Shown here piece after piece: positions 15,939 to 46,218 of a DNA stretch of 64,000 nt. A model generated the notes under the pieces. That model ran no database searches, was not told where the DNA came from, and worked only from the letters and a program-made list of their open reading frames with translations. How positions within the stretch are numbered: position 1 is the first letter of the stretch; each line of letters opens with the position of its first letter. Source of the DNA: Promicromonospora sp. MEB111 (lineage in GTDB: Bacteria; Actinomycetota; Actinomycetes; Actinomycetales; Cellulomonadaceae); contig NZ_JARVSD010000019.1 of assembly GCF_030209445.1 (NCBI RefSeq), forward strand, positions 1 to 64,000, read 5' to 3'. Made by a program: the position numbers and the translations under genes.

Positions 15939-16909
15939 GGGTGGCTGTGACCGGTTCGTCTGGGTTTGTTGGCGGGGCTGTGGTGCGGGACCTCGCCGTG
16001 CACGGGCACGAGGTGATCGCGTTCTCGCGCCGGGTCCCGCGCGTACCCGCCGAGCTGCTCGACAAGGTCTCCCACCAGTTCTGGGACCTGCGGGACGGCC
16101 CGCTGGCGAAGGAGGACCGGCCCGAGGACGTCGACGTCGTGGTGCACTGCGGCGCGTCCGTCGGGGACGGCGGCAGCCATGCCCGGGCCTGGGTGGTCAA
16201 CGTCGAGGGCACCCGCGCGGTCCGCGAGACCTTCCCCGACGCACGGTTCGTCCACCTGTCGTCGGGCAGCGTCTACGACCCCCGGACGCCGAGCGTCGCG
16301 GCCACCGAGGCGGAGGCGCCCGCCCGCGGGTACGTGAACCCCTACGGCTCCACCAAGGCCGCTGCCGAGCAGTACCTCGCGGCCGACGCCGCGCGCGAGG
16401 ACCGCGGCCCCGTCGTCGTGCTGCGGCCGCACGCGGTCTACGGGCCGGGCGACACCACGCTGCTGCCGCGGCTGGAGTCCGCGGCGATCGGCGCCTGGCT
16501 GCCGCTGCCGGGCGGCGGCAAGGTGCGGCAGCACCTCACGCACGTCGACACGCTGGCCCGTGCGGTGCGGGCCGCCCTGGACGCCGACGTCGAGCCCGAG
16601 ATCGCCGCCGGGCGGCCGCTCGTGGCCAACGTGGCCGACGCCAGCCCGGTCGACCTCGACGAGACGCTCGAGCTGCTGATGTTCGCCCGGTTCCGGCCGG
16701 TCCAGGTGGTGGGGATCCCGCTGCGGCTGGCGCACGCCCTGGCCTGGGTGGGGGAGCGACTGGCGCGGTGGACCGGCCGCGAGCCGCGCCTGTCGCGCTA
16801 CGCCATCAGCCACCTCGCGATGGAGCGCACCTACGACCTCACGGTGCTGCGGGAACGCCTCGGCGTGGACCCGGCGCCGACGTCGCTGCACGGCGCCATG
16901 AGCTGGTAG
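15935..16909 (+). CDS. NAD(P)-dependent epimerase/reductase, OleD-like
   Basis: The 324-residue extended short-chain dehydrogenase starts with the dinucleotide loop VTGSSGFVGGAVVRDL and has the catalytic Tyr-Lys pair in NPYGSTKAAAEQY (about residues 133-145), with Ser in HLSSGSVYD. In olefin/beta-lactone pathways OleD reduces the 2-alkyl-3-ketoacid made by OleA to the beta-hydroxy acid that OleC uses. This gene is last in the operon, overlapping the ligase by ATGA, which fits that order of reactions. A nucleotide-sugar epimerase role, given the neighbouring glycosyltransferase, cannot be excluded. Confidence 0.78.
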   Translation: MRVAVTGSSGFVGGAVVRDLAVHGHEVIAFSRRVPRVPAELLDKVSHQFWDLRDGPLAKEDRPEDVDVVVHCGASVGDGGSHARAWVVNVEGTRAVRETFPDARFVHLSSGSVYDPRTPSVAATEAEAPARGYVNPYGSTKAAAEQYLAADAAREDRGPVVVLRPHAVYGPGDTTLLPRLESAAIGAWLPLPGGGKVRQHLTHVDTLARAVRAALDADVEPEIAAGRPLVANVADASPVDLDETLELLMFARFRPVQVVGIPLRLAHALAWVGERLARWTGREPRLSRYAISHLAMERTYDLTVLRERLGVDPAPTSLHGAMSW

Positions 16910-16914
16910 CCCCC

Positions 16915-16963
16915 GTGTCAGACGTACAGGTCCCTCCCGTGACCTGTGCACCTGATACATCGG
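16915..16963 (+). terminator. Imperfect hairpin after the ole-like operon
   Basis: The left arm 16915-16932 (GTGTCAGACGTACAGGTC) faces GACCTGTGCACCTGATACA at 16941-16959, pairing well near the loop with mismatches toward the base. The same 18-nt left arm forms a perfect hairpin at 59371. Probably a decayed copy of the same terminator type. Confidence 0.55.
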
Positions 16964-16976
16964 GAGGCTGTCCGGA

Positions 16977-19403
16977 ATGCCCTACCCTGTGCGGGTGATT
17001 CCAGGGAGCGACGTCGCGATCGAGACGCTCGGGCTGCGCAAGGCGTACCGGTCGGTGCGCGGACGCGCCGTGGGCGTGGACGGCCTCGACCTGCGCGTAC
17101 CGGCCGGCGGCGTGCACGCGCTCCTCGGCCTCGCGGGCTCGGGCAAGACCACCACGCTGCGCCTGCTCACCGGCCTCGCCCACGCGGACGGCGGCGCCAT
17201 GAAGATCTTCGGCACCCATGTCCCGGACGGCCTGCCCGACCTCGCCGGCCGCATCGGCGCCGTCGTCGGCGACCCCGGGTTCCACGGCCGGCTGAGCGGA
17301 CGCCGCAACCTCGCCCTCCTCGCGAGCGCGGCCTCCGTGCCGCGCGCCCGCGTGGACGAGGTGCTCACCCGCGTGGTCCTCGCAGACCGGGCCAGGGCCG
17401 CCTACGCCACCTACTCGCCCGACGAGGAACGCCGGCTGGCGCTCGCGGCGGCGCTGCTGCGCGATCCCGACCTCCTCGTCGTCGACGACCCGAGCGCCGG
17501 GCTCGACGCCGTCGGCACACGCGAGATCCGTCAGGCCCTGCGGCGGCTGGCGGACCAGGGCAAGACCGTCCTGATCGCGACCGGCGTGCTCACCGAGGCG
17601 CAGCAGATCGCGGACACGGTCACGGTGCTCGACGGCGGCCGCATCCTCGCGCAGGGGAGCACCGCCGAGCTCCTGGGCGACGCCAGGGTGAGCGTCCGCG
17701 TGGGCGTCGACGAGCCGGGCAAGGCCGCCACGGCCCTGCGGGCCGCGGGGTTCAGGGTCCGGGCCGACGGCGACACGCTCCACGTCGACGACGTCGCCGA
17801 GCCCGCCGAGATCTCGCGGGCGCTCGCCAAGCAGAAGCTCTTCGCGGGCGAGCTGGTGCCGCAGCGGGAGGACCTGGCCGCCGTCGTCGGACGGCTGCGT
17901 CCCGTGGTGCCGCCGGCGCCCGTACCGCCGAGCCGCGCCGAGGAGCGAGCGGCCCGCAAGGCCGCGGAGCGGAAGGCGGCGGAGCGGAAGAAGGCCGCCG
18001 ACCAGCGCAAGGCGGACAAGGAGGCGGCCGCGAAGCAGGCGGCGGACGAGGCGAGGGCGACCGAGGAGGCCGCGGTGAAGCAGGCGGCGATCGACGCGCG
18101 GGCCGCGGCCAAGGAGGCCGCACGCGCGGAGCGGGCGGCCGCGAAGGAGAACCGGAGGTCGGCGGGACGGTCGGCCGGGCCGGAGGCGGTAAGTGCCGGG
18201 GACGCGGCTGCCGGGCAGGGGGACGGCACGGTGAAGGCGGTCGCGCAGGTGAGTGCCTCGGTGTCGGGCACCTCGGCGTCGGTCTCGACACAGGCGGGCG
18301 CCTCGAAGACCGGCGCCTCGAAGACGAACGCTCCCAAGCCGGGTGTCCCGAAGCCCGGTGTGTCGAAGCCTGCTGCGTCGAAGGCGACCGGCTCGAAGGC
18401 GACCGGCTCGAAGCCCGGCGCGGAGGCGACCGGCTCGGAGGTCGCCGTCCCGAAGCCGTCCGGTTCTCGGCCGGCCGCGCCGAAGCCGGCCGCGCCGAAG
18501 TCCTCCGCCGCCAAGCCCTCCGCCACACCAGGGACGGCCGCGGCCACCGCGGAGGCGCCCGCGGACGCCGACGCGCCGCCCAAGCAGTCGAGGTTCGCTC
18601 AGCGGCGGGCGGAGTTCGACGCCAAGGTGGCCGAGAAGCAGGCGGCGGCCGAGGCGCGGCTCGCGGAGCGCCAGGCGGCCGCCGACGCGAAGGCCGCGGA
18701 GAAGCAGGCCGCGGCGGAGGCCAGGGCGGCCGCGAAGCAGGACAAGGCCGATGCCAGGCAGGACAAGGCGGACGCGCGGCAGGCGAGGATCGACGACCGG
18801 GCCGCGCAGAAGCAGGCGGAGCTCGACGCCAAGGAGGCCGCGGCGCGGCAGAGGGCGGCCGAGAAGGCCGCGGCGGAGCAGGCGCGCGTCGACGCGAAGC
18901 AGGTCGCCCTCGACGAGAAGGCCACCCGGAAGCAGGAGGCCGCCGACGCCAGGACGGCCCGGCTCGCGAGCCGCACGGAGGGCGCCAAGGCGCTCCTGGG
19001 CCGGCGCGCGGCGGAGACGTCCGGCGGCCGGGACGGGGGCCTTGAGCTTGACGACCGGGAGGCGGAGGATCTGGAACCCGACGACCTCGAGCTGAAGCGG
19101 CTCGAGGCGGAGGATCTGGAACCCGACGACCTCGAGCTGAAGCGGCTCGAGGCGGAGGATCTGGAACCCGACGACCTCGAGCTCGACGACCTCGCACCGG
19201 ACACCGCCGAGCCGGCTGAACCCGAGCCGGACGACACCGAGCCGGGCGACGCCGAGACCGACGACGACGCACCGGACGCCGCCGAGCCGGACGGCGCCGC
19301 CGCGCCGAGGCCGGGCCCGCGCACCGACGCGGGGACGGGGCGGCCCCGCCCCGGGCAGCAGGGACCAGGCCGGAGCAAGAAGCGTTCGAAGGGAAGGCGA
19401 TGA
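16977..19403 (+). CDS. Degenerate ABC ATPase with long Ala/Lys-rich tail
   Basis: Residues 1-300 form an ABC ATPase with Walker A GLAGSGKTTT. The other catalytic motifs are altered: the LSGGQ signature reads YSPDEERR, Walker B ends VVDDPSAGLD so the catalytic Glu is Asp, and the switch His is replaced (ATGVLTEAQQ). About 500 further residues are low complexity: charged Ala/Lys/Glu helices (about 325-395 and 540-680), a Ser/Lys/Pro repeat stretch between them, and an acidic repeat tail. It overlaps a permease gene. ATG 16977 has GGGAGG 9 nt upstream; a leaderless GTG at 16995, behind TACCCT, is an alternative start. Confidence 0.75.
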   Translation: MPYPVRVIPGSDVAIETLGLRKAYRSVRGRAVGVDGLDLRVPAGGVHALLGLAGSGKTTTLRLLTGLAHADGGAMKIFGTHVPDGLPDLAGRIGAVVGDPGFHGRLSGRRNLALLASAASVPRARVDEVLTRVVLADRARAAYATYSPDEERRLALAAALLRDPDLLVVDDPSAGLDAVGTREIRQALRRLADQGKTVLIATGVLTEAQQIADTVTVLDGGRILAQGSTAELLGDARVSVRVGVDEPGKAATALRAAGFRVRADGDTLHVDDVAEPAEISRALAKQKLFAGELVPQREDLAAVVGRLRPVVPPAPVPPSRAEERAARKAAERKAAERKKAADQRKADKEAAAKQAADEARATEEAAVKQAAIDARAAAKEAARAERAAAKENRRSAGRSAGPEAVSAGDAAAGQGDGTVKAVAQVSASVSGTSASVSTQAGASKTGASKTNAPKPGVPKPGVSKPAASKATGSKATGSKPGAEATGSEVAVPKPSGSRPAAPKPAAPKSSAAKPSATPGTAAATAEAPADADAPPKQSRFAQRRAEFDAKVAEKQAAAEARLAERQAAADAKAAEKQAAAEARAAAKQDKADARQDKADARQARIDDRAAQKQAELDAKEAAARQRAAEKAAAEQARVDAKQVALDEKATRKQEAADARTARLASRTEGAKALLGRRAAETSGGRDGGLELDDREAEDLEPDDLELKRLEAEDLEPDDLELKRLEAEDLEPDDLELDDLAPDTAEPAEPEPDDTEPGDAETDDDAPDAAEPDGAAAPRPGPRTDAGTGRPRPGQQGPGRSKKRSKGRR
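19059..19184 (+). repeat. 45-bp tandem repeat in the ABC ATPase tail
   Basis: Two identical 45-bp copies (19059-19103, 19104-19148) and a 35-36-bp third copy encode an acidic 15-residue unit of the pattern EAEDLEPDDLELKRL. Identity at third positions indicates recent duplication. Confidence 0.88.
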
Positions 19404-36141: not shown

Positions 36142-36726
36142 TCAGCCGGCCGTGCGCCGCACCACCGTGCGGCTCAGGGTCCCCGTGAGCAGGGAGTACA
36201 CGGCGGAGCCGATGATGACCCAGACGATCGCGGCGAGGACCGCCGGCACGAGGTCGGCCTGGCCGGCGAACGGCACCATGGCGAGGATCACCGTGGCGAG
36301 CGCGACCACCCAGCCGAAGAACGCCCGGGGGCGCGGTGTGCTCAGGACCAGCAGGTAGAGCACGATCGCGGCCAGGAGCGCGAAGAGCGCGCCCGCCACG
36401 ACCCAGGCCATGAGGTCGGAGCCCGTGCTGAGCAGGTCGGCCTGCGGCTGGATCTCTAGGTTCAGCACCTCTTCGAGGATGAAGCTCGCGGCGAGCCCGA
36501 TGAGGGCGGCCACCAGCATCGTGGCCAGGGCGCCTGCCCAGTACCGGCCGACCTCCAGGCCGAGGCGCGGGTTCTCGGTGCCCGTCGTGACGGGCTGGGC
36601 CCGCGCGTCGGCGGGCGGCTGGCCCACGGGCTGCGTCGGCACCCCGGGCGTCTGGGCCGGCGGCGGGTAGGCCGGCGGCGGCTGCTCGCCGTAGTCGGGG
36701 TCGTAGGGGCGGTTCGGGTCGCTCAT
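36142..36726 (-). CDS. Four-span membrane protein of unknown function
   Basis: I do not recognise a characterised family, though DUF6069-like actinobacterial proteins look similar. The 194-residue product has a Pro/Gln/Tyr-rich cytosolic N-terminus (residues 1-60, with repeated PPA and YP motifs) followed by four hydrophobic segments (about 73-98, 115-138, 143-165 and 167-187) joined by short loops. There are no catalytic-looking residues. It forms its own unit, with a hairpin after the stop. The start, ATG 36726, has GGGAGGTAA upstream. Confidence 0.7.
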   Translation of the reverse strand: MSDPNRPYDPDYGEQPPPAYPPPAQTPGVPTQPVGQPPADARAQPVTTGTENPRLGLEVGRYWAGALATMLVAALIGLAASFILEEVLNLEIQPQADLLSTGSDLMAWVVAGALFALLAAIVLYLLVLSTPRPRAFFGWVVALATVILAMVPFAGQADLVPAVLAAIVWVIIGSAVYSLLTGTLSRTVVRRTAG

Positions 36727-36797
36727 CGCGTTACCTCCCGGTTTGTGTAGCCCTATCTCCACTAGACCACGGATCGGTCGAGACCGCACGGCGCACG

Positions 36798-36848: not shown

Positions 36849-38249
36849 TCAGCGCACCCCCTGCAGATCCAGGACCAGGCCCTTGACCGCCGACGCCGGC
36901 ACCTGGCCCGCGTCGGCCTCCACCCAGTGGGACACCGCCTCGGGGATCCGCGTGTCCGAGCACAGGACGAGCGGGGTGTCCTCGGCCGAGTCGGGCAGCC
37001 GGCCGTGCGTGCCGCGCACGTACGAGGCGTCCAGCGGCGTGGTGCCCATCGCGTACCGCAGGCCCAGCTTCTTCCGCACGAGGTTCAGGCCCGCCTTGGT
37101 CTTGGCCAGCGGGTCGGCCGGGTCGAAGAACAGCTCGGCGGGGTCGTAGCCGGGCTTGCGGTGGATGTCGACGCCGCGTGCGTACTCGGGCGCGCGGTCG
37201 TCGTCGAGCCAGAAGTAGTAGGTGAACCAGGCGCCCGGTTCCGCCACGACCACCAGCTCGCCCGCCCGCTCGTGGTCCAGGCCGTACTTGGCCTGCGCCT
37301 CGCGGTCGAGCACCTCGTCGACGCCGGGTACCTCGCGCAGCAGGGCCGCGACCCGGGCCAGGTCGGCGGGGTCGTCCACGTAGACGTGCGCCACCTGGTG
37401 GTCCGCGACGGCGAACGCGCGCGACGTCCACGGGTCGAGCTGCTCCCGGCCGTCCTGCACGTAGACCTCCAGGAGGCCCTCGCGGCGCAGCACCCGGTTG
37501 ATGTCCACCGGCCGGTTGGCCGGGGAGATGCCGTACTCCGACACGGCGACGACGGTGACGCCGGCGGCCTCGGCGTCGTCCAGCAGGGGCGCGAGGGCCG
37601 CGTCGAGCTCGGCCGCGGCGCGGTCCGCCTCGGGCGAGCGCGGGCCGAACCGCTGCAGGTCGTAGTCGAGGTGCGGCAGGTAGGCCGTCGTCAGGTGGGA
37701 CGACCTGGTGCGCAGGAGGTGCCGGGTCACGTCGACGATCCACCGCGTCGAGGCGATCGATGCCGTGGGGCCCCAGTACTGGAACAGCGGGAAGTCCCCG
37801 AACCGGCCCACGAGCTCGTCGTGCAGCTCCGCGGGCCGCACGTACCCGTCGGCGGACTTGCGGCCGTCGGCGTGGTAGATCGGGCGCGGGGTGACCGTGA
37901 CGTCCGTGGACATGCCCATCGCGTACCACCAGCACACGTTGTCGGCGCGGTAGCCCGGGTCGTGCCGGCGGCCCGCCTCCCACAGCTTCTCGCCGTCCAC
38001 CAGCTTGTTGTGCTGCCGCCACAGGTACACGTCGCCCAGCTCGCGGAAGTACCAGCCGTTGCCGACGATCCCGTGCTGCGCCGGCATCAGCCCCGTGAGC
38101 ATCGTCGACTGCACGCTGCAGGTCACGGCGGGCAGCACGGTGGCCAGCTCGGACTGCCAGCCGGACGTCGCGAGCCGGCTCAGCCGCGGCATGTGGGACA
38201 GGGCGCGGGCGGTCAGACCGACGACGTCGAGCAGCAGGACGGGCTTCAT
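36849..38249 (-). CDS. Alkaline phosphatase-superfamily phosphodiesterase, EboF-like
   Basis: The 466-residue protein belongs to the nucleotide pyrophosphatase/phosphodiesterase branch. The N-terminal metal Asp is in LLLDVVGLT and the nucleophilic Thr in AVTCSVQSTMLTG (about residue 43), with further metal ligands in TAYLPHLDYDLQRFGP and VAVSEYGISP. No signal peptide is evident. In ebo clusters EboF is the last gene and is thought to process a phosphorylated intermediate; the substrate is unproven. The start overlaps the EboE-like stop by ATGA. Confidence 0.82.
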   Translation of the reverse strand: MKPVLLLDVVGLTARALSHMPRLSRLATSGWQSELATVLPAVTCSVQSTMLTGLMPAQHGIVGNGWYFRELGDVYLWRQHNKLVDGEKLWEAGRRHDPGYRADNVCWWYAMGMSTDVTVTPRPIYHADGRKSADGYVRPAELHDELVGRFGDFPLFQYWGPTASIASTRWIVDVTRHLLRTRSSHLTTAYLPHLDYDLQRFGPRSPEADRAAAELDAALAPLLDDAEAAGVTVVAVSEYGISPANRPVDINRVLRREGLLEVYVQDGREQLDPWTSRAFAVADHQVAHVYVDDPADLARVAALLREVPGVDEVLDREAQAKYGLDHERAGELVVVAEPGAWFTYYFWLDDDRAPEYARGVDIHRKPGYDPAELFFDPADPLAKTKAGLNLVRKKLGLRYAMGTTPLDASYVRGTHGRLPDSAEDTPLVLCSDTRIPEAVSHWVEADAGQVPASAVKGLVLDLQGVR

Positions 38250-39451
38250 GCGTCCACTCCTTCGGTAGCTGTAGCGGCGGCGACGGGCGCCGTGAGCAGG
38301 TGCTTGCCGGCCCAGCGCAGCTCGGCCGCGATCCCGGCGACGAGCTCGTCCGCGCCGTCGGGCAGGGTGTCGGGCGGCAGCACCGACCAGGTGTACGTCT
38401 CGACGTCGAGGTGCGCGTCGGCGCCGTGCGGCGCCTCGCGCACCGCGGCGACGGCGTCGCGCAGCACGTCGGTGGTCGCGACCAGCGGCGCCGCGGGCTC
38501 GTGGTGCAACGGCACGTGGAAGTGCACCCGCCACGGCCCGTCGCCCGGCAGGCCGGGCCGCCGCTGCTCGTTCCCGAGCGCCACGGGCAGGTCGTCGGAG
38601 GCCAGCACGTCGCCGGCCGCCGTGAGCTCGCGCACCTGGTGCAGGTAGCGCTGCTCCACGAACCGCCCGACGGCGTCCCGCGCACCGGGCGCGGACGGGT
38701 CGGCGACCTCCAGGGCGGCCGAGGCCTGCACCTTGACCACACGAAGGCCCGCGTCCGTGATGCGGCGGACAGCGCCGGCCGGGTCCGCGAACGAGACCGC
38801 CAGGTGGCAGGTGTCCAGGCAGACACCGACGTGCTCGGGATCGATGCGCCGGTCGTCCGGGTACTCGGAGCCGGTGCGCGGGGCGAGCCACGCGACGACG
38901 TCCTCCACCGTGTCGAGCACGCACCCCGGCTCCGGCTCGACGGCGACCCGCACCGTGCGGCCGGTGCGCCGAGCGAGCTCGCGCAGCTCGGCCGACAGCG
39001 TGGCGAAGGCCCGGGTGGCCTCGTCGTCGTCGGCGCGCGTCCAGGGCGCGCGCCAGGCCAGCGGCAGGGTCGAGATCGAGCCGTCGGTGCCCTCGGGCAG
39101 CAGGTCGGCCAGCACCCGGGCGCAGGCGAGCACGTAGTCCAGCCGGGCTCGTTCCGCCCACGTGGGGGAGTACACCGCGAGCTTGACCACCTCGCGGTGG
39201 AACCCGCCGTAGGGGAAGGCGTTGAGGGTGTGCACCTGGAGCCGGTGCTCGGCGAGCGCCGCGCGCAGGCGGTCGCGGTCCGCCGGGGACGTGTCCAGGC
39301 GGTGCGCGAGCTCGGCGGGCAGCCACAGGCCCACGCCGAGCGTGTCGAGGCCCGCGGCTTCGCGCACCGGTCCGGCGTACCGGGTGAGCTGGTCGATCAC
39401 GCCGTCGAGGTCCTCGGCGGGGTGCACGTTGGTGCAGTAGGAGAGCAGCAT
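38246..39451 (-). CDS. Metabolite traffic protein EboE-like (TIM barrel)
   Basis: A 401-residue sugar-phosphate-isomerase-like TIM barrel. The opening LLSYCTNVHPAEDLDGV is the hallmark of EboE proteins. Metal and substrate residues appear as VAVEPEPGCVLDTV, GVCLDTCHLAV and VHFHVPLHHEP, then DVETYTW near the C-terminus. EboE is one of six Ebo proteins needed in Nostoc to move a scytonemin precursor to the periplasm; its reaction is not known. It lies 12 bp after the TatD-like gene and overlaps the phosphatase gene. Confidence 0.85.
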   Translation of the reverse strand: MLLSYCTNVHPAEDLDGVIDQLTRYAGPVREAAGLDTLGVGLWLPAELAHRLDTSPADRDRLRAALAEHRLQVHTLNAFPYGGFHREVVKLAVYSPTWAERARLDYVLACARVLADLLPEGTDGSISTLPLAWRAPWTRADDDEATRAFATLSAELRELARRTGRTVRVAVEPEPGCVLDTVEDVVAWLAPRTGSEYPDDRRIDPEHVGVCLDTCHLAVSFADPAGAVRRITDAGLRVVKVQASAALEVADPSAPGARDAVGRFVEQRYLHQVRELTAAGDVLASDDLPVALGNEQRRPGLPGDGPWRVHFHVPLHHEPAAPLVATTDVLRDAVAAVREAPHGADAHLDVETYTWSVLPPDTLPDGADELVAGIAAELRWAGKHLLTAPVAAATATEGVDA

Positions 39452-39463
39452 CTGGGTGTCCCT

Positions 39464-40348
39464 TCAGGCCCGCGCGCCGCGCAGCACGGACGATCCCTCG
39501 AACTCGACGCCGGGCGTCGGCGGCTCGCCCGCGCTGAACCCGGGGACCGGGTCGAGCACGAGGTTGCCCGACTGCTCGTAGAAGGCGACCGGATTGCGCC
39601 ACAGCACCTGGTCGACGTCGTCCTCCGAGAAGCCGGCGGCCAGCATCGCCTCGCCGGTCCGGACGGTCTTGAGCGGGTCGGATCGCCCCCAGTCCGCGGC
39701 GGAGTTCACGATCATCCGCTCGGTCCCGTACTCCTGCAGCAGCGCGACCATGCGGTGCTCATCCATCTTGGTGTCGGGGTAGATCGAGAACCCGGCCCAC
39801 GCTCCGGCGTCGCGCACGAGGGCGACGTTGGTCTCGTTGAGGTGGTCCACCAGCACCCGCTCCGGCGCCAGCCCGGACTCGCGCACGACGTCGAGCGTGC
39901 GGCGCGTGCCGGCGAGCTTGTCGCGGTGCGGCGTGTGCACCAGGACGGGCAGCCCGGCCTCCTCGGCCATCCCGAGCTGGGCGGCGAACACCTCGTCCTC
40001 CTCGGGCGTCATCGAGTCGTAGCCCACCTCGCCCACGGCCACGACGCCGTCCTTGAGCAGGTAGCGGGGGATCTCGGCGAGCACCTCGCGGCAGCGGGGG
40101 TCGTTCGCCTCCTTGGGGTTGAGGGCGATCGTCGCGTGGTGCCGCACGCCGAACTGGGCGGCCCGGAACCTCTCCCAGCCCAGCAGGGAGTCGAAGTAGT
40201 CGGTGAACGAGCCCACGCTGGTGCGGGGCTGACCCAGCCAGAACGCGGGTTCGACGACGGCGCGCACGCCCGCGGCGTACAGGGCCTCGTAGTCGTCGGT
40301 GGTGCGGCTCGTCATGTGGATGTGCGGGTCGAGGATGCGCAACGTCAC
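39464..40348 (-). CDS. TatD-family metal hydrolase, EboB-like
   Basis: A 294-residue amidohydrolase-fold protein. The first metal site is LDPHIHMTSRT (His-x-His), the Glu ligand is in VAVGEVGYDSM, further His ligands occur in VLVHTPHRDK and LVDHLNETN, and the last Asp is in IVNSAADWGRSD. TatD relatives are DNases or lactonase-like hydrolases; in ebo clusters the substrate is unknown. GTG 40348 overlaps the EboA-like stop and has GAAGGA upstream. Confidence 0.83.
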   Translation of the reverse strand: MTLRILDPHIHMTSRTTDDYEALYAAGVRAVVEPAFWLGQPRTSVGSFTDYFDSLLGWERFRAAQFGVRHHATIALNPKEANDPRCREVLAEIPRYLLKDGVVAVGEVGYDSMTPEEDEVFAAQLGMAEEAGLPVLVHTPHRDKLAGTRRTLDVVRESGLAPERVLVDHLNETNVALVRDAGAWAGFSIYPDTKMDEHRMVALLQEYGTERMIVNSAADWGRSDPLKTVRTGEAMLAAGFSEDDVDQVLWRNPVAFYEQSGNLVLDPVPGFSAGEPPTPGVEFEGSSVLRGARA

Positions 40349-41088
40349 TCCTTCGTGCTGCTGAGCCGGTCGTTCGTGGGCTGGTCGTTCGTGAGACGTG
40401 TGTTCGTGAGCCGGTCCAGGTCGGCCGGGACGGACCGTCCGGCCGCCCGGCGTTCCGCGGCGAAGTCGCGGGCCATGCGGCCCAGCTCGTCGTCGGCACG
40501 GCGGTCCAGGTCGCTCGCGGCCGTCAGGCTCACGCCCTGGAAGACGAGCTTGAGGATCGCGTGCCGCCACGTGTGCTGGTCCAGGTGCCGTGCCCCGAAC
40601 GGGCCGACGGCGGCCGCGACCAGGCTGGGGTCGTTGGCCCGCAGGGCGTCGGCGGCGAGCTCGAGGCCTGCCGTGACGAGCGCGGTGGGCTCGCCGACCG
40701 GGCCCAGGTCGCCTCGTTCCGTCAGCGCGTCGAACCCCCGCAGCACGCCGCGCCGCTCGGCGCCGTCGCCCTGCCGGTACAGGAGCACCAGGCGGTCCGC
40801 GCAGTCCTTGTCCGCGTCCGCGCCGACGCAGGTACCCATGCCCATGCCCACGCCCACGGCGTCGGCCAGCGCGACGACGAGGGCGGCGCGCGCGGCGTCG
40901 TCCACCGTCCCGTGCACGACGCCGCCCGGGTCGGTGTCCGGACGCAGCGGGGCACGCCCCACCCTGCGGGCCGCGAACGCGAACGCGCGGGTCACGCTGT
41001 CGGGATCACGCGCGACCCCGGCGAGCGCCTCGTCGAGCCAGACGGCGCCGGGTGTCCCGGCAGGTATACCCGTGGTGACAGTGTTCAT
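40345..41088 (-). CDS. EboA-like protein
   Basis: A 247-residue, helix-rich soluble protein that matches EboA by neighbourhood and general pattern: an N-terminal WLDEALAGVARDPDSVTRAFAFAAR segment, a central LVLLYRQGDGAERRGVLRGF stretch and a C-terminal helix with RHAILKLVFQGVSL. EboA's biochemical role is unknown. The last 25 residues are a Thr/Asn/Asp-rich low-complexity tail (LTNTRLTNDQPTNDRLS). Both ends overlap neighbours (ATGA, GTGA). Confidence 0.75.
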   Translation of the reverse strand: MNTVTTGIPAGTPGAVWLDEALAGVARDPDSVTRAFAFAARRVGRAPLRPDTDPGGVVHGTVDDAARAALVVALADAVGVGMGMGTCVGADADKDCADRLVLLYRQGDGAERRGVLRGFDALTERGDLGPVGEPTALVTAGLELAADALRANDPSLVAAAVGPFGARHLDQHTWRHAILKLVFQGVSLTAASDLDRRADDELGRMARDFAAERRAAGRSVPADLDRLTNTRLTNDQPTNDRLSSTKE

Positions 41089-41996
41089 GACAGGGCCCCT
41101 TCGCTGCTGGTCGTGGCGGTGCGAGCTCGGGCGCGGGCGCCGGTGACGTCCGCCCACGCCCGCATGAGGGCGGCCCGGCTGTCGCGGGCGAGCCGGGGCG
41201 CGTCGTGGGAGTGGCGGGGCAGCTCGACGGCGGCGACCCCCGTGTAGCCGATGTCGGCGAGCGTCGCGAGCACGAGCGGCAGGTCGAGGTCGCCCTGGCC
41301 GAACGGGCGGTGCTCGTGGTGCGTGCCCGGCATGTCGTCGAGCTGCACGTTGCTGAGGTACGGCGCCGCGGCGCGCAGCGCGCCCTCGACGCCGTCCGGC
41401 TCGACCACCAGGCAGTGCCCGACGTCGACGGTGATCCCCAGCTCGGGCGGCGTACCCAGGTCCGCCAGGAGCCGCAGCGCGTCGCCGACCGTCTCGACGA
41501 GCATCCCCGGCTCGGGTTCGAGCGAGAGGTGCACCCCGCGCTCCCCGGCGTACTCGACCAGGGCGCCGACGCGCTCGTGGAGGCGGGCCCAGCCGTCGGC
41601 GGCGCTCGCGTCGTCCGGCAGGATGCCGGAGAAGAACGAGACGCACCGGGCGTCGAGGTCCGCCGCGATCTCGACCGCGCGCTCGAGGTACCGCATCCGC
41701 AGGGCGGCGTCCCGGTCCACGAGGGTGGGCCGGTGCTTGTGGAGGGGGTCGAGCAGGTACCGCGTGCCGGTCTCGACGACCGCCGCGGCCCCGGTGCCCC
41801 CGCGCATCCGCCGCAGGTGGGCACGCAGGGCCCGGACGTCGTCGCCGGCCAGCGGCGCGAACGGGTCGAGGTGCGGAAAGCCGAGCGTGACCGCGACGGC
41901 GGCGTAGCCCACGTCGTCGAGCACGTCGAGGGCCACCCGCAGGGGGTGGTCGCCGAAGCCGTTGGTGCCGTAGCCCAGCAGGAACGGCGGTGTCAC
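41085..41996 (-). CDS. Sugar phosphate isomerase/epimerase (TIM barrel)
   Basis: A 303-residue xylose-isomerase-like TIM barrel, the second such protein in this operon. It starts LLGYGTNGFGDHPLRVALDVL. Metal/acid residues are visible in HLSLEPEPGMLVET, ITVDVGHCLVVEPDG, NVQLDDMPGTHHEHRPFGQG and AAVELPRHSHDAP. The pattern suits an epimerase or isomerase for a sugar or cyclitol phosphate. This gene is not one of the classical six ebo genes, so it is a distinguishing feature of this variant. GTG 41996 overlaps the UbiA-like stop. Confidence 0.8.
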   Translation of the reverse strand: MTPPFLLGYGTNGFGDHPLRVALDVLDDVGYAAVAVTLGFPHLDPFAPLAGDDVRALRAHLRRMRGGTGAAAVVETGTRYLLDPLHKHRPTLVDRDAALRMRYLERAVEIAADLDARCVSFFSGILPDDASAADGWARLHERVGALVEYAGERGVHLSLEPEPGMLVETVGDALRLLADLGTPPELGITVDVGHCLVVEPDGVEGALRAAAPYLSNVQLDDMPGTHHEHRPFGQGDLDLPLVLATLADIGYTGVAAVELPRHSHDAPRLARDSRAALMRAWADVTGARARARTATTSSEGALS

Positions 41997-42940
41997 GTGA
42001 TGCTCACCCCGGCGCGGCCGCGTGCGCGAGCCAGCAGGCGCAGCCCCTGGCCCACGGCGGCGACGCCGGCCAGCAGCGCCGTCGTGCCCAGGCTCCCCGA
42101 GCGGGCCGCCCAGGCGGCCTGCAGCGGGACCATCGCCTGGATCCCGGCCCGCGTGGCGGTGCGCGCGTTGGCGGCGGTGGGCCGCGCCGCCGCGCGCACC
42201 TGCCCGGGCAGGGCGGCCGCGGCGTAGGCGGTCGCCGCGGCGACGGTGGTCCAGCGTGCGACCGGCCGACCCGCCGTGGCGGTTGCCGGGACCGCGGCGG
42301 CGGCGACGGCGCCCGCGACCGTCCCGGCGGCGACACCGCTCGCGACCCGCGTCGACGTACCGTGCACCTCGCCGCGCGAGAGCACGGTGACGCCCAGCGT
42401 GTGCGCGGTCAGCCCCGCGGCCGCCGGGAGCGCCGAGCGCAGGCGCCCGGGCGTGGCGCCGAGCAGCACGTCGAGCCCGCGGCACGCCGCCATGACGAAC
42501 GGCCCGGCGGGGCGGTCCTTGGCCACCAGGTCGTAGGTCCAGACGCAGGCGGCCAGCGGCAGGGCGACGCCGAGCGCGCGCCGTCCGCCCGCGATGCCCG
42601 CGGCGGCCACGCCGCCCGCGGTGAGCGCCCCGCCGATCGCGAGCGCGGCCCGCGGCGTCACCCGGCCGGACGGGATCGGCCGTTCGGGCCGCTCGACGGC
42701 GTCGACGTGCCGGTCGGCGTAGTCGTTCAGCGCCATGCCGCCCAGGTACAGGCAGGCGGAGGCGACGGGCAGCAGGAGGTGGCGGGCGCGCAGCGGCGTC
42801 GGCGCGCCGTCGCGGGTGCCGGCGCGTGCGGCGGCCAGCCCGGCCAGCGTGTCGCCCACGACGCTCAGGGCCGCGGGGGCCCGGACCAGCTCGGCGACGT
42901 CGGCGAGGCCGGGCGGCCGCACCGTCAGCCGGGGCCTCAT
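41993..42940 (-). CDS. UbiA-family prenyltransferase, EboC-like
   Basis: A 315-residue integral membrane prenyltransferase with seven to nine hydrophobic segments. The first prenyl-diphosphate/Mg motif is LNDYADRHVDAVERPERP (NDxxDxxxD, about residues 72-80). The second Asp-rich motif is weaker: TYDLVAKDRPAG and CRGLDVLLG. It would attach a prenyl chain to a polar acceptor at the membrane; with inositol-phosphate synthase next door a cyclitol acceptor is plausible but unproven. I recall a Streptomyces coelicolor relative near SCO3242 in a similar gene set; this should be checked. It overlaps both neighbours. Confidence 0.8.
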   Translation of the reverse strand: MRPRLTVRPPGLADVAELVRAPAALSVVGDTLAGLAAARAGTRDGAPTPLRARHLLLPVASACLYLGGMALNDYADRHVDAVERPERPIPSGRVTPRAALAIGGALTAGGVAAAGIAGGRRALGVALPLAACVWTYDLVAKDRPAGPFVMAACRGLDVLLGATPGRLRSALPAAAGLTAHTLGVTVLSRGEVHGTSTRVASGVAAGTVAGAVAAAAVPATATAGRPVARWTTVAAATAYAAAALPGQVRAAARPTAANARTATRAGIQAMVPLQAAWAARSGSLGTTALLAGVAAVGQGLRLLARARGRAGVSIT

Positions 42941-44157
42941 CGTCCGGCCCGTGCCGAGGTGGCGCGCACCCAGTCCTCCACTGCGCGGGCCTGGTCGGCG
43001 GCGTCGTGCACGTCCGAGCCCCACGGGTCCTTGAAGAAGAAGCCCAGCTCCGGCACGGGCCCGCTGATCCCGGCGGCGTGCGCCAGCGCGAGCAGGCGGG
43101 CCAGGTCGAGCACGAGCGGGGCGGCGAGCATCGAGTCGTGCGCGCTCCACGTGGTCTGCAGCGTGAGCCGCGACCCGAGGAAGCCCTCGACGTGCACGTG
43201 GTCCCAGGCGACCTTGGTGTCGCCCAGGTCGGGCACGTTGTCGATGTGCAGGGGAGTGGTGTCGCTGCCGGTCAGCGCGGTCAGCCCGCGGTTCTTGCTG
43301 GCGAGCTTGCTGCGCACGGCGTCGGGGTCCGCGAGGGTGGCGCCGTCGCCGCCGCCCAGCAGGTTGGTGCCGGCCCACGACAGCACCTTGAGGCCGCGCG
43401 CGGCGAACGCCGGTGCCAGCACGGTGCGCAGCCACGTCTGCCCGGTCTTGCCGTCCTGCCCTGCCACGGGGATGCCGCGCTGCCGGGCGAGCCGGGTCAG
43501 CGCGGGCAGGCCCATGCCCGCCGACGGCGTGAAGGCGGCGTACGCGGCTCCGGCAAGGATCGCCGCGTACGCCGAGACGGAGGACGCGGGAAGCACCGCG
43601 CGCGCCGGGTCGGCCAGGGCCGTGAGGAGGGCGTCGACGTCGTCGTGCTCGGGCGCGGGGTCGACGGGCGGCTCGGTCGAGGACAGGTCGATCACGACGA
43701 CCCGCGCCAGGTCGTGCCGCTCCTGGAACGACGTGATGTCGGCGGCGAGCCGCTCGGCGACCGCCTGCTGGGAGAGGCCCGCGCCGTCGTCCGTGTCCGT
43801 GTGCGCCGCGTGCGGGTCGTACCCGGGGCGTACCTCGGCGTCCGCCCGCTCCAGGGCGTCGTGCGTGGCGGCGAACAGCCGCGGCCCGATCATGCCCGTC
43901 TCGACGAGGCACTCCGCGCGCTTGGTCATGGTGACCGACGAGATGTCGTGCCCGCCGACCACCAGGTCGGCGAACGCGGGGAGGCCCGCCGAGGCGAAGG
44001 GCTCCCGCGCGGTGACGCAGCCCGTCGGTGGGGCCTGCCCCTCGGCGATGGCCGCGAGGCCCACCGTGGCCGTACTGGCCACGGAGCCGCGGGCCCCGAC
44101 GAACCAGATACCGGTCCGCGCAGAGGCATGGTGGCGTGCAGAGGCGTGGTGCATCAT
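42937..44157 (-). CDS. myo-Inositol-1-phosphate synthase-like cyclase
   Basis: This 406-residue NAD-dependent cyclase family converts glucose 6-phosphate to inositol phosphate. Visible are the dinucleotide loop GIWFVGARGSVASTATVG, the conserved GQDGKTGQTWLRTVLAP, TNLLGGGDGATL and SKLASKNR, and the DHVHVEGFLG segment. It heads the Ebo-like operon in place of EboD, a dehydroquinate-synthase-type cyclase. ATG 44157 and ATG 44154 are adjacent; GGGGAG lies 2 and 5 nt before them, so the second may be used. The start encodes a His/Ala/Ser duplication (HHASARHHASAR). Confidence 0.85.
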   Translation of the reverse strand: MMHHASARHHASARTGIWFVGARGSVASTATVGLAAIAEGQAPPTGCVTAREPFASAGLPAFADLVVGGHDISSVTMTKRAECLVETGMIGPRLFAATHDALERADAEVRPGYDPHAAHTDTDDGAGLSQQAVAERLAADITSFQERHDLARVVVIDLSSTEPPVDPAPEHDDVDALLTALADPARAVLPASSVSAYAAILAGAAYAAFTPSAGMGLPALTRLARQRGIPVAGQDGKTGQTWLRTVLAPAFAARGLKVLSWAGTNLLGGGDGATLADPDAVRSKLASKNRGLTALTGSDTTPLHIDNVPDLGDTKVAWDHVHVEGFLGSRLTLQTTWSAHDSMLAAPLVLDLARLLALAHAAGISGPVPELGFFFKDPWGSDVHDAADQARAVEDWVRATSARAGR

Positions 44158-44388: not shown

Positions 44389-44517
44389 CACTATGACCCG
44401 CATGACTGAGTGCCTCACCCCGAGCTCCACCCTGCGACAGGTGATCATCATTTCGTAGCGCGTCCGGCGACACCCCACCGGACGCGCAGACCTTCCACAC
44501 CCGGAGGGTCTTTTTTT
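44389..44517 (+). promoter_or_regulatory. cimA promoter and translational attenuator
   Basis: CACTAT (44389-44394) lies 7 nt before a leader-peptide ATG. A perfect 10-bp hairpin (44458-44467 with 44478-44487) starts at the last base of the leader stop codon. It abuts a terminator: a 9-bp stem (44488-44496 with 44503-44511, one G-U) with a 6-nt loop, then T at 44511-44517. Ribosome stalling at the Val-Ile-Ile-Ile codons should change termination; the exact antiterminator pairing is not clear by eye. Confidence 0.82.
44402..44458 (+). CDS. cimA leader peptide
   Basis: An 18-residue frame, MTECLTPSSTLRQVIIIS, ends in one Val and three consecutive Ile codons just before its TAG. Its position (start 7 nt after the -10 box, stop touching a hairpin, intrinsic terminator 30-50 nt on) mirrors classical amino-acid leader peptides and matches isoleucine as the end product of the CimA route. 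It is too short to be a structural gene. Confidence 0.82.
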   Translation: MTECLTPSSTLRQVIIIS

Positions 44518-44586
44518 GTTGGTCCGACCGTCTGGCTTCGTGCCGGGTTGTCGGACACATCGCCAGACACATCGTTGGGAGCATCG

Positions 44587-46218
44587 ATGACCACCGCCTC
44601 GTTCCAGGTGTACGACACGACGCTGCGCGACGGCGCGCAGCAGGAGGGCATGAACCTCTCCGTCTCCGACAAGCTCGCGATCGCCGCGCTGCTCGACGAG
44701 CTCGGCGTGGGCTACATCGAGGGCGGCTGGCCGGGGGCGGTACCCAAGGACACCGACTTCTTCGCCCGTGCCGCCGCCGAGCTGACCCTGAAGAACGCGG
44801 TGCTCGCGGCCTTCGGCGCCACCCGCCGGGCCGGCGTCCGCGCGGGCGACGACCCGCAGGTGCGTGCCCTGCTCGACGCGAGCACCCCCGTGGTCACGCT
44901 CGTGGCCAAGTCGGACGTGCGGCACGTCGAGCGCGCCCTGCGGACGACCCGCGCCGAGAACCTCGCGATGATCGCCGACACCGTCTCCTTCCTCGTGGCC
45001 GAGGGGCGCCGGGTGGTGCTGGACGCCGAGCACTTCTTCGACGGCTACCGGTACGACGCGCAGTACGCGACCAGCGCCGTCCACACGGCGTTCGAGGCCG
45101 GCGCCGAGGTGGTCACCCTTTGCGACACCAACGGCGGCATGCTGCCCACCTGGGTCGGCGAGATCGTGGCCGAGCTGCGGGCGGGCACCGTGGTCGGGCC
45201 GGAGCAGCGGTTCGGCGTGCACGCGCACAACGACACCGGGTGCGCGGTGGCCAACTCGCTCGCCGCCGTCGAGGCGGGGGCCACCCACGTGCAGGGCACG
45301 GTCAACGGGTACGGCGAGCGCACGGGCAACGCCGACCTGGTCACGGTCGTGGCCAACCTGGAGCTCAAGCGCGGCATGTCCCTCCTGGCGGACGGCGGCC
45401 TGCGGGAGGCGGCCCGGATCTCGCACGCCATCAGCGAGCTCACGAACATCTCGCCGTTCGCCCGGCAGCCCTACGTGGGGGCGAGCGCGTTCGCCCACAA
45501 GGGCGGCCTGCACGCCAGCGCCATCCGCGTGGACCCCGACATGTACCAGCACACCGACCCCACGCTGGTGGGCAACGACATGCGCATGCTCGTGTCGGAC
45601 ATGGCGGGCCGGGCCTCGATCGAGCTCAAGGGCCGCGAGCTGGGCTTCGACCTCGCCGGCCAGGGCGAGCTGCTCTCCCGGGTCACGAACCGCGTCAAGG
45701 ACGACGAGGCCGCGGGCTACACCTTCGAGGCGGCCGACGCCTCCTTCGAGCTGCTGCTGCTGTCCGAGCTGGGGCAGCGGCCCGACTTCTTCACCGTCGA
45801 GTCGTGGCGCACCATCGTGGAGACCGTTCCCGCGGGCGCGGCCCCGCCGTCGGTCCACGCCCCCGACGCCGTCGCGGTGGCCGAGGCGACCGTCAAGATC
45901 CGGGCGGGTGGCGAGCGGATCGTGACGACGGGAGAGGGCAACGGCCCGGTCAACGCGCTGGACCAGGCGCTGCGCACCGCGCTGTCCCGGGTCTACCCGG
46001 AGCTCGCGCGGTTCGAGCTCATCGACTTCAAGGTGCGCATCCTCGACACCGAGCTCGGCACCGACGCGATCACGCGGGTGCTGATCGACACCAGCGACGG
46101 CGAGCGGTCCTGGTCGACGGTCGGCGTCGGCCCCAACGTGGTCGAGGCCGCGTGGGAGGCGGTCACGGAGGCCTACGTCTACGGCCTCCTCAAGTCAGAC
46201 GTGGAGCCGCGTCCCTGA
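44587..46218 (+). CDS. cimA: Citramalate synthase
   Basis: CimA condenses pyruvate and acetyl-CoA to (R)-citramalate, giving 2-oxobutyrate for isoleucine without threonine. The 543-residue protein has an N-terminal TIM barrel (about 1-280) with VYDTTLRDGAQQEG, GVHAHNDTGCAVANSLAAVEAG and VNGYGERTGNADL, then AHKGGLHASAI and a C-terminal LeuA-type regulatory domain (about 395-535). The length and opening sequence favour citramalate over isopropylmalate synthase, though only assay would settle it. ATG 44587 has GGGAG 6 nt upstream. Control is by the Ile/Val-type attenuator before it. Confidence 0.92.
   Translation: MTTASFQVYDTTLRDGAQQEGMNLSVSDKLAIAALLDELGVGYIEGGWPGAVPKDTDFFARAAAELTLKNAVLAAFGATRRAGVRAGDDPQVRALLDASTPVVTLVAKSDVRHVERALRTTRAENLAMIADTVSFLVAEGRRVVLDAEHFFDGYRYDAQYATSAVHTAFEAGAEVVTLCDTNGGMLPTWVGEIVAELRAGTVVGPEQRFGVHAHNDTGCAVANSLAAVEAGATHVQGTVNGYGERTGNADLVTVVANLELKRGMSLLADGGLREAARISHAISELTNISPFARQPYVGASAFAHKGGLHASAIRVDPDMYQHTDPTLVGNDMRMLVSDMAGRASIELKGRELGFDLAGQGELLSRVTNRVKDDEAAGYTFEAADASFELLLLSELGQRPDFFTVESWRTIVETVPAGAAPPSVHAPDAVAVAEATVKIRAGGERIVTTGEGNGPVNALDQALRTALSRVYPELARFELIDFKVRILDTELGTDAITRVLIDTSDGERSWSTVGVGPNVVEAAWEAVTEAYVYGLLKSDVEPRP

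Follow-up and report, generated by a model that had tools for sequence, protein, structure and literature searches.

A conserved ebo operon of Promicromonospora with a myo-inositol-1-phosphate synthase in the place expected of EboD

Introduction

The ebo genes, named in 2016, are canonically a six-gene set, EboABCDEF, also called EDB in Pseudomonas, as described in the accessible text of two papers (PMC5133447, PMC6282210). An isoprenoid-cyclitol was proposed as their product (PMC5133447). Nostoc ebo deletion mutants accumulate the scytonemin monomer, the export of which is blocked, and a cyclitol lipid carrier has been proposed (PMC6282210). The accessible part of the same paper also states the link to nematodes in Pseudomonas, which a preliminary description of the locus treated here had mentioned. 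In this study, we analysed a variant ebo operon from Promicromonospora sp. MEB111. It lies in a window, i.e. the whole stretch of DNA under analysis, of 64,000 nucleotides (assembly GCF_030209445.1, contig NZ_JARVSD010000019.1, positions 1 to 64,000 of the forward strand), and the source genome has a size of 6.23 Mb and a completeness of 99.4%.

Like the canonical ebo cluster, the window encodes EboA, EboB, an EboC-like protein, EboE and EboF in a tight operon, and a ScyD/ScyE gene precedes one relative of its type. Unlike the canonical cluster, it is devoid of EboD and contains a myo-inositol-1-phosphate synthase (INO1) and an extra TIM barrel protein (TIMx) instead, and its EboC belongs to the separate SCO3242 family. 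This INO1-type ebo operon, of which we found no description in the open-access literature searched, is real and conserved. The exchange offers a useful handle on what the widespread ebo genes make, since inositol can be labelled.

Results and Discussion

The operon consists of seven open reading frames on the minus strand between 44157 and 36849, coding in this order for INO1, UbiA, TIMx, EboA, EboB, EboE and EboF. Adjacent genes overlap by 4 bp at five of the six junctions, and a gap of 12 bp separates EboB from EboE. The reading frames and the family profiles (Pfam and NCBIfam, used for all window proteins) bear out the preliminary description, which had listed seven minus-strand genes with 4-bp overlaps at all junctions but one.

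A separate EboD elsewhere in the genome would argue against a replacement. None was found in a profile search of the window genome, because the single protein with a dehydroquinate synthase (DHQS) fold is AroB (TIGR01357, score 350, cut-off 305; EboD family NF004852, score 169, cut-off 333). In a survey of 396 genomes of Actinomycetota, EboE was present in 19, at 20 places, and the INO1 domain PF07994 in 79. In 17 of the 19 genomes with EboE, INO1 and EboE are 3.2 to 4.2 kb apart, and since identical genes in an identical order make up all 17 of these seven-gene clusters, the window included, the operon is more than a chance arrangement. One of the two exceptions, genome G435, has a DHQS protein in the ebo cluster and no INO1, and it is the only one of the 396 genomes with a match to the EboD family NF004852 at E≤1e-80. 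In the other, G333, UbiA and EboE are fragmented, and INO1 lies beside TIMx on another contig. No DHQS match occurred near any of the 17 INO1-type clusters. Thus, the 19 EboE genomes of the survey contain 17 INO1 clusters, one EboD cluster and none with both, and gene set, conservation and exclusion of EboD agree with the view of the preliminary description that the window carries an ebo variant with INO1 in the expected place of EboD.

INO1 of the ebo class, as classed here, was absent from genomes lacking EboE (Fisher p 6e-28, with species that are not independent). The remaining 62 of the 79 PF07994 genomes, G333 included, were classed as non-ebo by score together with the lack of a nearby EboE, and local profiles were applied to 19 of their loci; the low-scoring INO1 fragments of G433 and G083 are consistent with membership of the other class. 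A second sample comprised the best 80 of at least 589 named EboE loci, ranked by likeness to the window EboE and hence biased to its type. All 80 belong to Actinomycetota by title; INO1 was found in 53 and DHQS in none. Among the 27 loci without INO1, 13 are incomplete, and in 14 the sequence upstream of EboE extends for 6 kb or more. The operon compared between Flavobacteria and Saccharomonospora is described with EboD in the accessible text of PMC9235831; the sole Saccharomonospora locus that we examined (L120) carries INO1 and no DHQS.

INO1 (42937..44157, minus strand; PF07994, 178 bits; PF01658, 104 bits) starts at 44157 or 44154 (ATGATG, with GGGGAG ahead of it) and ends at 42937. It belongs to an archaeal-like class and not to the mycothiol equivalog, scoring 36.5 to 36.9 bits with the model TIGR03450 (cut-off 638). 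Its closest relative in the PDB is the INO1 of A. fulgidus (1u1i, 213 bits), with which it shares class, length and the catalytic asparagine and lysine residues, and from which it differs by its position in an ebo operon and by the presence of another INO1 in the genome. Residues N264, K283, K287, K314 and K375 are invariant in all 84 aligned ebo INO1 proteins; we take them to be the counterparts of the catalytic residues of the A. fulgidus enzyme, changed residues of which are present in the PDB variants 3qvw, 3qvx and 3qw2. With both Pfam domains, the catalytic asparagine and the lysines, the window protein has the hallmarks of a myo-inositol-1-phosphate synthase. The homologue might nevertheless make a different cyclitol phosphate, for instance one with a five-membered ring, as one PDB homologue (6k96, 37.5 bits) is a five-membered-cyclitol-phosphate synthase. 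We regard this as very unlikely, given that the A. fulgidus inositol synthase is far nearer and that the asparagine and the four lysines are kept throughout.

A second INO1 of the canonical mycothiol type is encoded on another contig of the same genome (TIGR03450, 704 bits). The window INO1 is therefore neither the ordinary nor the only one of the cell, which disposes of the objection, foreseen in the preliminary description, that it might be the sole inositol synthase. TIGR03450 was used to find canonical INO1 proteins; PF07994 alone gave one match in the genome but missed the control, Corynebacterium glutamicum. Separate full-length INO1 proteins of the mycothiol type are present in 12 of the 17 INO1-ebo genomes, in 11 above the cut-off and in G217 below it at 606 bits. 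Three more encode an additional INO1 that falls in the other class, so that another INO1 is available for mycothiol and other needs in 15 of the 17 genomes; no other INO1 was found in G322 and G372 (82% complete). In these two, the INO1 of the operon could be the sole source of inositol for general use, i.e. for mycothiol and phosphatidylinositol, and could have come to lie among the ebo genes by chance. As a general explanation we judge this highly improbable and reject it, in view of the second INO1 in most genomes, the location of this INO1 class beside EboE in 17 of 17 cases and, as classed, never in a genome without EboE, the four-base overlaps in the window and the fixed gene order.

TIMx (41085..41996, minus strand, GTG start; PF01261, 125 bits) is a TIM barrel similar to sugar-phosphate isomerases and epimerases. 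A search at E 1e-12 over 72,556 plasmids retrieved TIMx in 37 records, 36 of which have INO1 within 5.5 kb; 28 of the 37 come from Streptomyces, Embleya or Nonomuraea, and nearly identical copies are frequent. In four of the 36 records (Roseomonas, two Methylobacterium and Hymenobacter), local profiles detected no ebo gene within 8 kb on either side of INO1, and in G333 the pair is located apart from the ebo cluster. All this shows that TIMx goes with INO1. The preliminary description had rightly placed the TIM barrel in the gene set but missed that its partner is INO1 rather than the ebo genes. INO1 and TIMx appear to form a unit substituting for EboD, and the finding points to a reusable two-gene unit. 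In 18 of 103 loci, a single open frame covers both TIMx and EboA, which fits the actinobacterial TIM-EboA hybrid proteins mentioned, with data not shown, in the accessible text of PMC5133447, where the term myo-inositol does not occur. In the window, by contrast, TIMx and EboA are separate, overlapping genes.

The ebo-free pairs are located at L248 7971-17080 (Roseomonas), L249 7590-16291 (Hymenobacter), L247 and L251 (both Methylobacterium), with TIMx scores of 325 to 335 bits. The two annotated records among these four contain genes for a Gfo/Idh oxidoreductase, a YcaO protein and a PIG-L deacetylase, and Roseomonas also one for a GT4 glycosyltransferase. This looks like another INO1-based pathway, perhaps to a mycothiol-like compound.

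Outside the Actinomycetota, INO1-type clusters were sought on plasmids. Eight of 48 plasmid records with EboE were opened and, of 44 INO1 plasmid records, eight more at the INO1 matches. By annotation and local profile, the clusters of Deinococcus, Azospirillum, Ketogulonicigenium, Roseivivax and Mycetohabitans are of the EboD type; in these five proteobacterial or Deinococcus clusters, EboD scores 317 to 369 bits with the local DHQS profile. Two Streptomyces plasmids are of the INO1 type. Gemmatirosa kalamazoonensis (Gemmatimonadota) possesses INO1, TIMx, EboB, EboE, EboF and UbiA in a different gene order, with neither DHQS nor EboA. In the haloarchaeal plasmids of Halobaculum, Halocatena and Natronococcus, INO1 is found beside an EboF-like, an EboB-like and an EboC-like UbiA protein and two TIM genes; a six-frame profile search detected no EboA, DHQS or true EboE in these three clusters. 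Haladaptatus has the haloarchaeal set without INO1, and Halomarina has INO1 with no ebo genes within 8 kb. Ebo clusters of archaea are not mentioned in the accessible text of PMC5133447 or PMC6282210. Our finding thus suggests that archaea, too, have ebo-like clusters, and it extends the preliminary description, since the INO1 type occurs also in a Gemmatimonadota species and, in an ebo-like form, in haloarchaea.

The Gemmatirosa cluster (L237 1108-8188) looks as though the cyclase had been exchanged within a pre-existing cluster. Its EboB groups with those of L059 and L232, two clusters of the EboD type that yielded no EboA.

The UbiA-family membrane prenyltransferase (41993..42940, minus strand) scores 318 bits with the SCO3242 family NF045897 (cut-off 260) and 155 bits with the EboC family NF035940 (cut-off 250). 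The NDxxDxxxD positions are kept in 94 of 95 aligned proteins, with one gap. After the two ebo models, its next-best scores begin with geranylgeranylglycerol-phosphate geranylgeranyltransferase, an enzyme that attaches a prenyl group to a hydroxyl. This likeness fits an inositol acceptor. The S. coelicolor protein that lends its name to the family, SCO3242, is numbered next to the myo-inositol phosphate synthase SCO3243 (accessible text of PMC3610822). The preliminary description had pointed to a similar S. coelicolor gene set, SCO3237-SCO3243; this holds for SCO3242, a putative transferase after which the NCBI family is named, and for SCO3243. No function is given for either in the papers we found naming them.

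In the UbiA tree, the six rows from EboD-type clusters lie on one side of a branch with 100/100 support. The other side holds the INO1-type Actinomycetota, Gemmatirosa and the haloarchaea, and also L119 and Haladaptatus, the clusters of which are without INO1. The EboF and EboB trees are different in that the EboD-type rows form one group in 0% of bootstrap trees. Here, Gemmatirosa joins some of the EboD-type rows with 100/98 (EboF) and 100/100 (EboB) support, and approximately unbiased (AU) tests rejected trees in which Gemmatirosa was forced together with the INO1 type (p 0.004 for EboF, p 1.5e-6 for EboB). Long branches call for caution with the EboB tree, in which the EboD-type rows are divided even if Gemmatirosa is disregarded. 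Thus, the type of EboC follows the cyclase in trees and EboB and EboF do not, a contrast drawn from one lineage, Gemmatirosa. The alternation of two unrelated cyclases at the same position, accompanied by a change of prenyltransferase, is comparative evidence in favour of the cyclitol component of the 2016 proposal.

The other four proteins of the operon are assigned as follows. EboA (40345..41088, minus strand) carries the EboA domain (NF035938, 133 bits, cut-off 50) and scores 53 with the stricter EboA_family model (cut-off 320). Its structural model is all-helical (predicted local distance difference test 92.4), with no PDB match at E≤0.001. EboB (39464..40348, minus strand, TTG start) is a TatD-type metal-dependent hydrolase (PF01026 TatD_DNase, 46.5 bits, cut-off 27). 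Its putative ligands H9 and H11 are present in 112 of 114 aligned proteins, the other two having gaps, and E107, H138, H169 and D219 in all 114. EboE (38246..39451, minus strand) is a TIM-barrel metabolite traffic protein (NF035939, 437 bits, cut-off 250), and EboF (36849..38249, minus strand) a member of the alkaline phosphatase superfamily (PF01663, 206 bits, cut-off 23) with altered metal-ligand positions. No curated EboB or EboF model matched the window proteins, which share 39-59% (EboB) and 47-55% (EboF) identity with those of six EboD-type clusters.

Taken together, we consider it probable that INO1 and TIMx stand in for EboD in this operon and supply a headgroup of the inositol type, that this headgroup is prenylated by EboC and that the resulting lipid serves metabolite traffic. 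This reading builds on the gene set, its conservation, the exclusion of EboD, the linkage of INO1 and TIMx and the co-variation of EboC and cyclase in one tree, from which each chemical step is inferred. Judging by homology and the kept catalytic residues, INO1 would convert glucose-6-phosphate to myo-inositol-1-phosphate. TIMx, and perhaps EboE too, would alter that cyclitol, as linkage and fold suggest. The SCO3242-type EboC would join an isoprenoid to the cyclitol at the membrane, probably via a hydroxyl as in archaeal ether-lipid synthases. EboA might act as a scaffold, as suggested in the literature, EboB might hydrolyse something in the route, and EboF might contribute some step to it. 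The prenyl-cyclitol would then assist in the traffic or maturation of metabolites across the membrane, as the Nostoc mutants accumulating scytonemin monomer suggest. A wider version is possible and is offered tentatively: Actinobacteria, a Gemmatimonadota species and haloarchaea might share an INO1-TIM-EboC core that makes a prenyl-inositol lipid, of which the literature searched holds no description, as a membrane carrier or cofactor moving metabolites, and EboD-type clusters might make the corresponding lipid from another cyclitol.

Several observations weigh against this reading. The INO1 classes are not sharply split, as L255-L259 have intermediate scores (324-340 with the ebo INO1 profile, 368-410 with that of the other class). 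In a UbiA tree without haloarchaea, the Gemmatirosa UbiA falls between both groups, both splits being supported. The haloarchaeal EboC proteins score 178/170 and 197/161 with the EboD-type EboC family and the SCO3242 family, respectively; because these scores lean to the EboD-type family, a one-to-one map of EboC family, as given by profile score, to cyclase was dropped. The EboE tree was likewise dropped as evidence of separate histories, because placing Gemmatirosa with the INO1 type was not rejected (AU test, p 0.319). A ScyD/ScyE-family gene precedes INO1 in S. camelliae, and a search with this ScyE at E 1e-10 yielded no relatives in the window and L055-L172. In vitro, the ebo-linked prenyltransferases tested, which come from three genera, favour quinolines (accessible text of PMC9235831); this weighs against a cyclitol acceptor, unless it stems from the choice of substrates. 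In the open-access literature searched, we found no INO1-type cluster for which a product, an enzyme assay or a mutant is described.

EboF belongs among these points as well. In an alignment with phosphonoacetate hydrolase, T43 and D195 are kept, whereas three metal-ligand positions are Q199, E238 and Y239 in 112 of 112 proteins, including that of L059, the one EboD-type cluster covered. The first metal-ligand Asp is replaced by C or N in 21 of the 112. The ligands in the two-metal site of the alkaline phosphatase superfamily, as in phosphonoacetate hydrolase, presumably are Asp, His, Asp and His, a set that the aligned EboF proteins do not show. Haloarchaeal EboF-like proteins have Glu-Tyr in three of three cases and Gln in one of three. 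Given these altered positions, EboF may not be an ordinary phosphatase, and the dephosphorylation envisaged in the preliminary description is doubtful.

Among the named loci, 64 reach 6 kb or further upstream of EboE, and 14 of them have no INO1 in the cluster, which is a last point against the replacement of EboD by INO1 and TIMx. The genomes of these 14 and of L144, the cluster of which ends at a contig end, were checked for PF07994. INO1 was found elsewhere in 14 of the 15; in L144 it may belong to the same interrupted cluster, and S. alanosinicus has no PF07994 INO1 anywhere in the genome. Other ebo-type genes, presumably a second cluster, adjoin INO1 in 10 of those 14 genomes (1.5 kb flanks examined), and G183 carries both an INO1-type and an INO1-less ebo cluster on one contig. 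Streptomyces can thus harbour a second, INO1-less ebo cluster. Such loci could mean that INO1 and EboD feed different pathways and that the shared genes perform cyclase-independent transport for which a cyclase is optional. In accordance with that, no cyclase was found in the cluster in 13 TIMx-bearing full loci, L135 and Haladaptatus, and the Nostoc ebo cluster proper is without eboD, a homologue being located nearby (accessible text of PMC6282210). Nevertheless, we consider an optional cyclase unlikely in the light of the INO1 found elsewhere in 14 of 15 such genomes, the two cyclases that never occur together in 19 EboE genomes and the type of EboC that follows the type of cyclase.

INO1-less second clusters of Streptomyces were seen in L056 (13915-18779), L134, L139, L140, L141, L145, L150 and L151. 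Upstream of such clusters are genes for a CrtI/CrtO-like flavoprotein (8 loci), an inositol monophosphatase family protein (7) and a gamma-glutamyltranspeptidase (7), with domains read in L056.

The neighbourhood of the clusters offers clues to isoprenoids, metabolite traffic and sugars. Of 119 stretches scanned, 8 have a polyprenyl synthase gene as the immediate neighbour of the cluster; it has the same orientation in L055, L067, L096, L127 and L136 and the opposite one in L072, L116 and L152, and these eight genomes and that of the window have three to six such genes each. In L058 and in three Streptomyces loci (L115, L128, L133), parts of nonribosomal peptide synthetases (NRPS) lie upstream and another shared protein is encoded directly before INO1. 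In all four, a 4'-phosphopantetheinyl transferase gene directly follows EboF, and next comes one for an FtsX exporter protein (domains read in L115 and, for NRPS, in L128). Plasmid L238 has the same flanking genes with no NRPS part in view.

The sugar clues bring up a different explanation, namely that the genes form a sugar or inositol breakdown set in which the TIM barrels and the TatD-type hydrolase degrade cyclitols or 3-keto sugars. One protein similarity group, the L057 member of which (15305-19000) has GSDH, ThuA and 3-keto-disaccharide hydrolase domains, occurs within 7 kb of the cluster in 41 of 115 loci (of the 119 stretches, L093 and L094, duplicates of L085 and L075, as well as L088 and L092 were left out of this count). 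Genes for ThuA or a pyrroloquinoline quinone (PQQ)-sugar dehydrogenase and for an ATP-binding cassette (ABC) transporter lie beside the clusters of Natronococcus (L246 12568-15231) and Halocatena (L245 13783-14508), and the Haladaptatus cluster adjoins a DUF1080 gene. Moreover, the best PDB match of the EboE profile is IolI, a weak one (1.1e-4). However, INO1 and UbiA enzymes are biosynthetic and not degradative. The polyprenyl synthase neighbours and the NRPS- and ScyE-linked copies also speak against breakdown, and the export blocked in Nostoc ebo mutants is that of a compound that the cell has made (accessible text of PMC6282210). We therefore hold a catabolic role to be quite unlikely and retain the reading of a prenylated cyclitol.

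Two further genes border the operon. A small membrane protein without an NCBIfam match is encoded directly downstream of EboF on the same strand (36142-36789), and its relatives occur close to the cluster in 11 loci of the same genus, of which one is rearranged. Upstream of INO1, a divergent gene for citramalate synthase (44410-46218; TIGR00977, 620 bits) adjoins the cluster in 10 loci, including the window.

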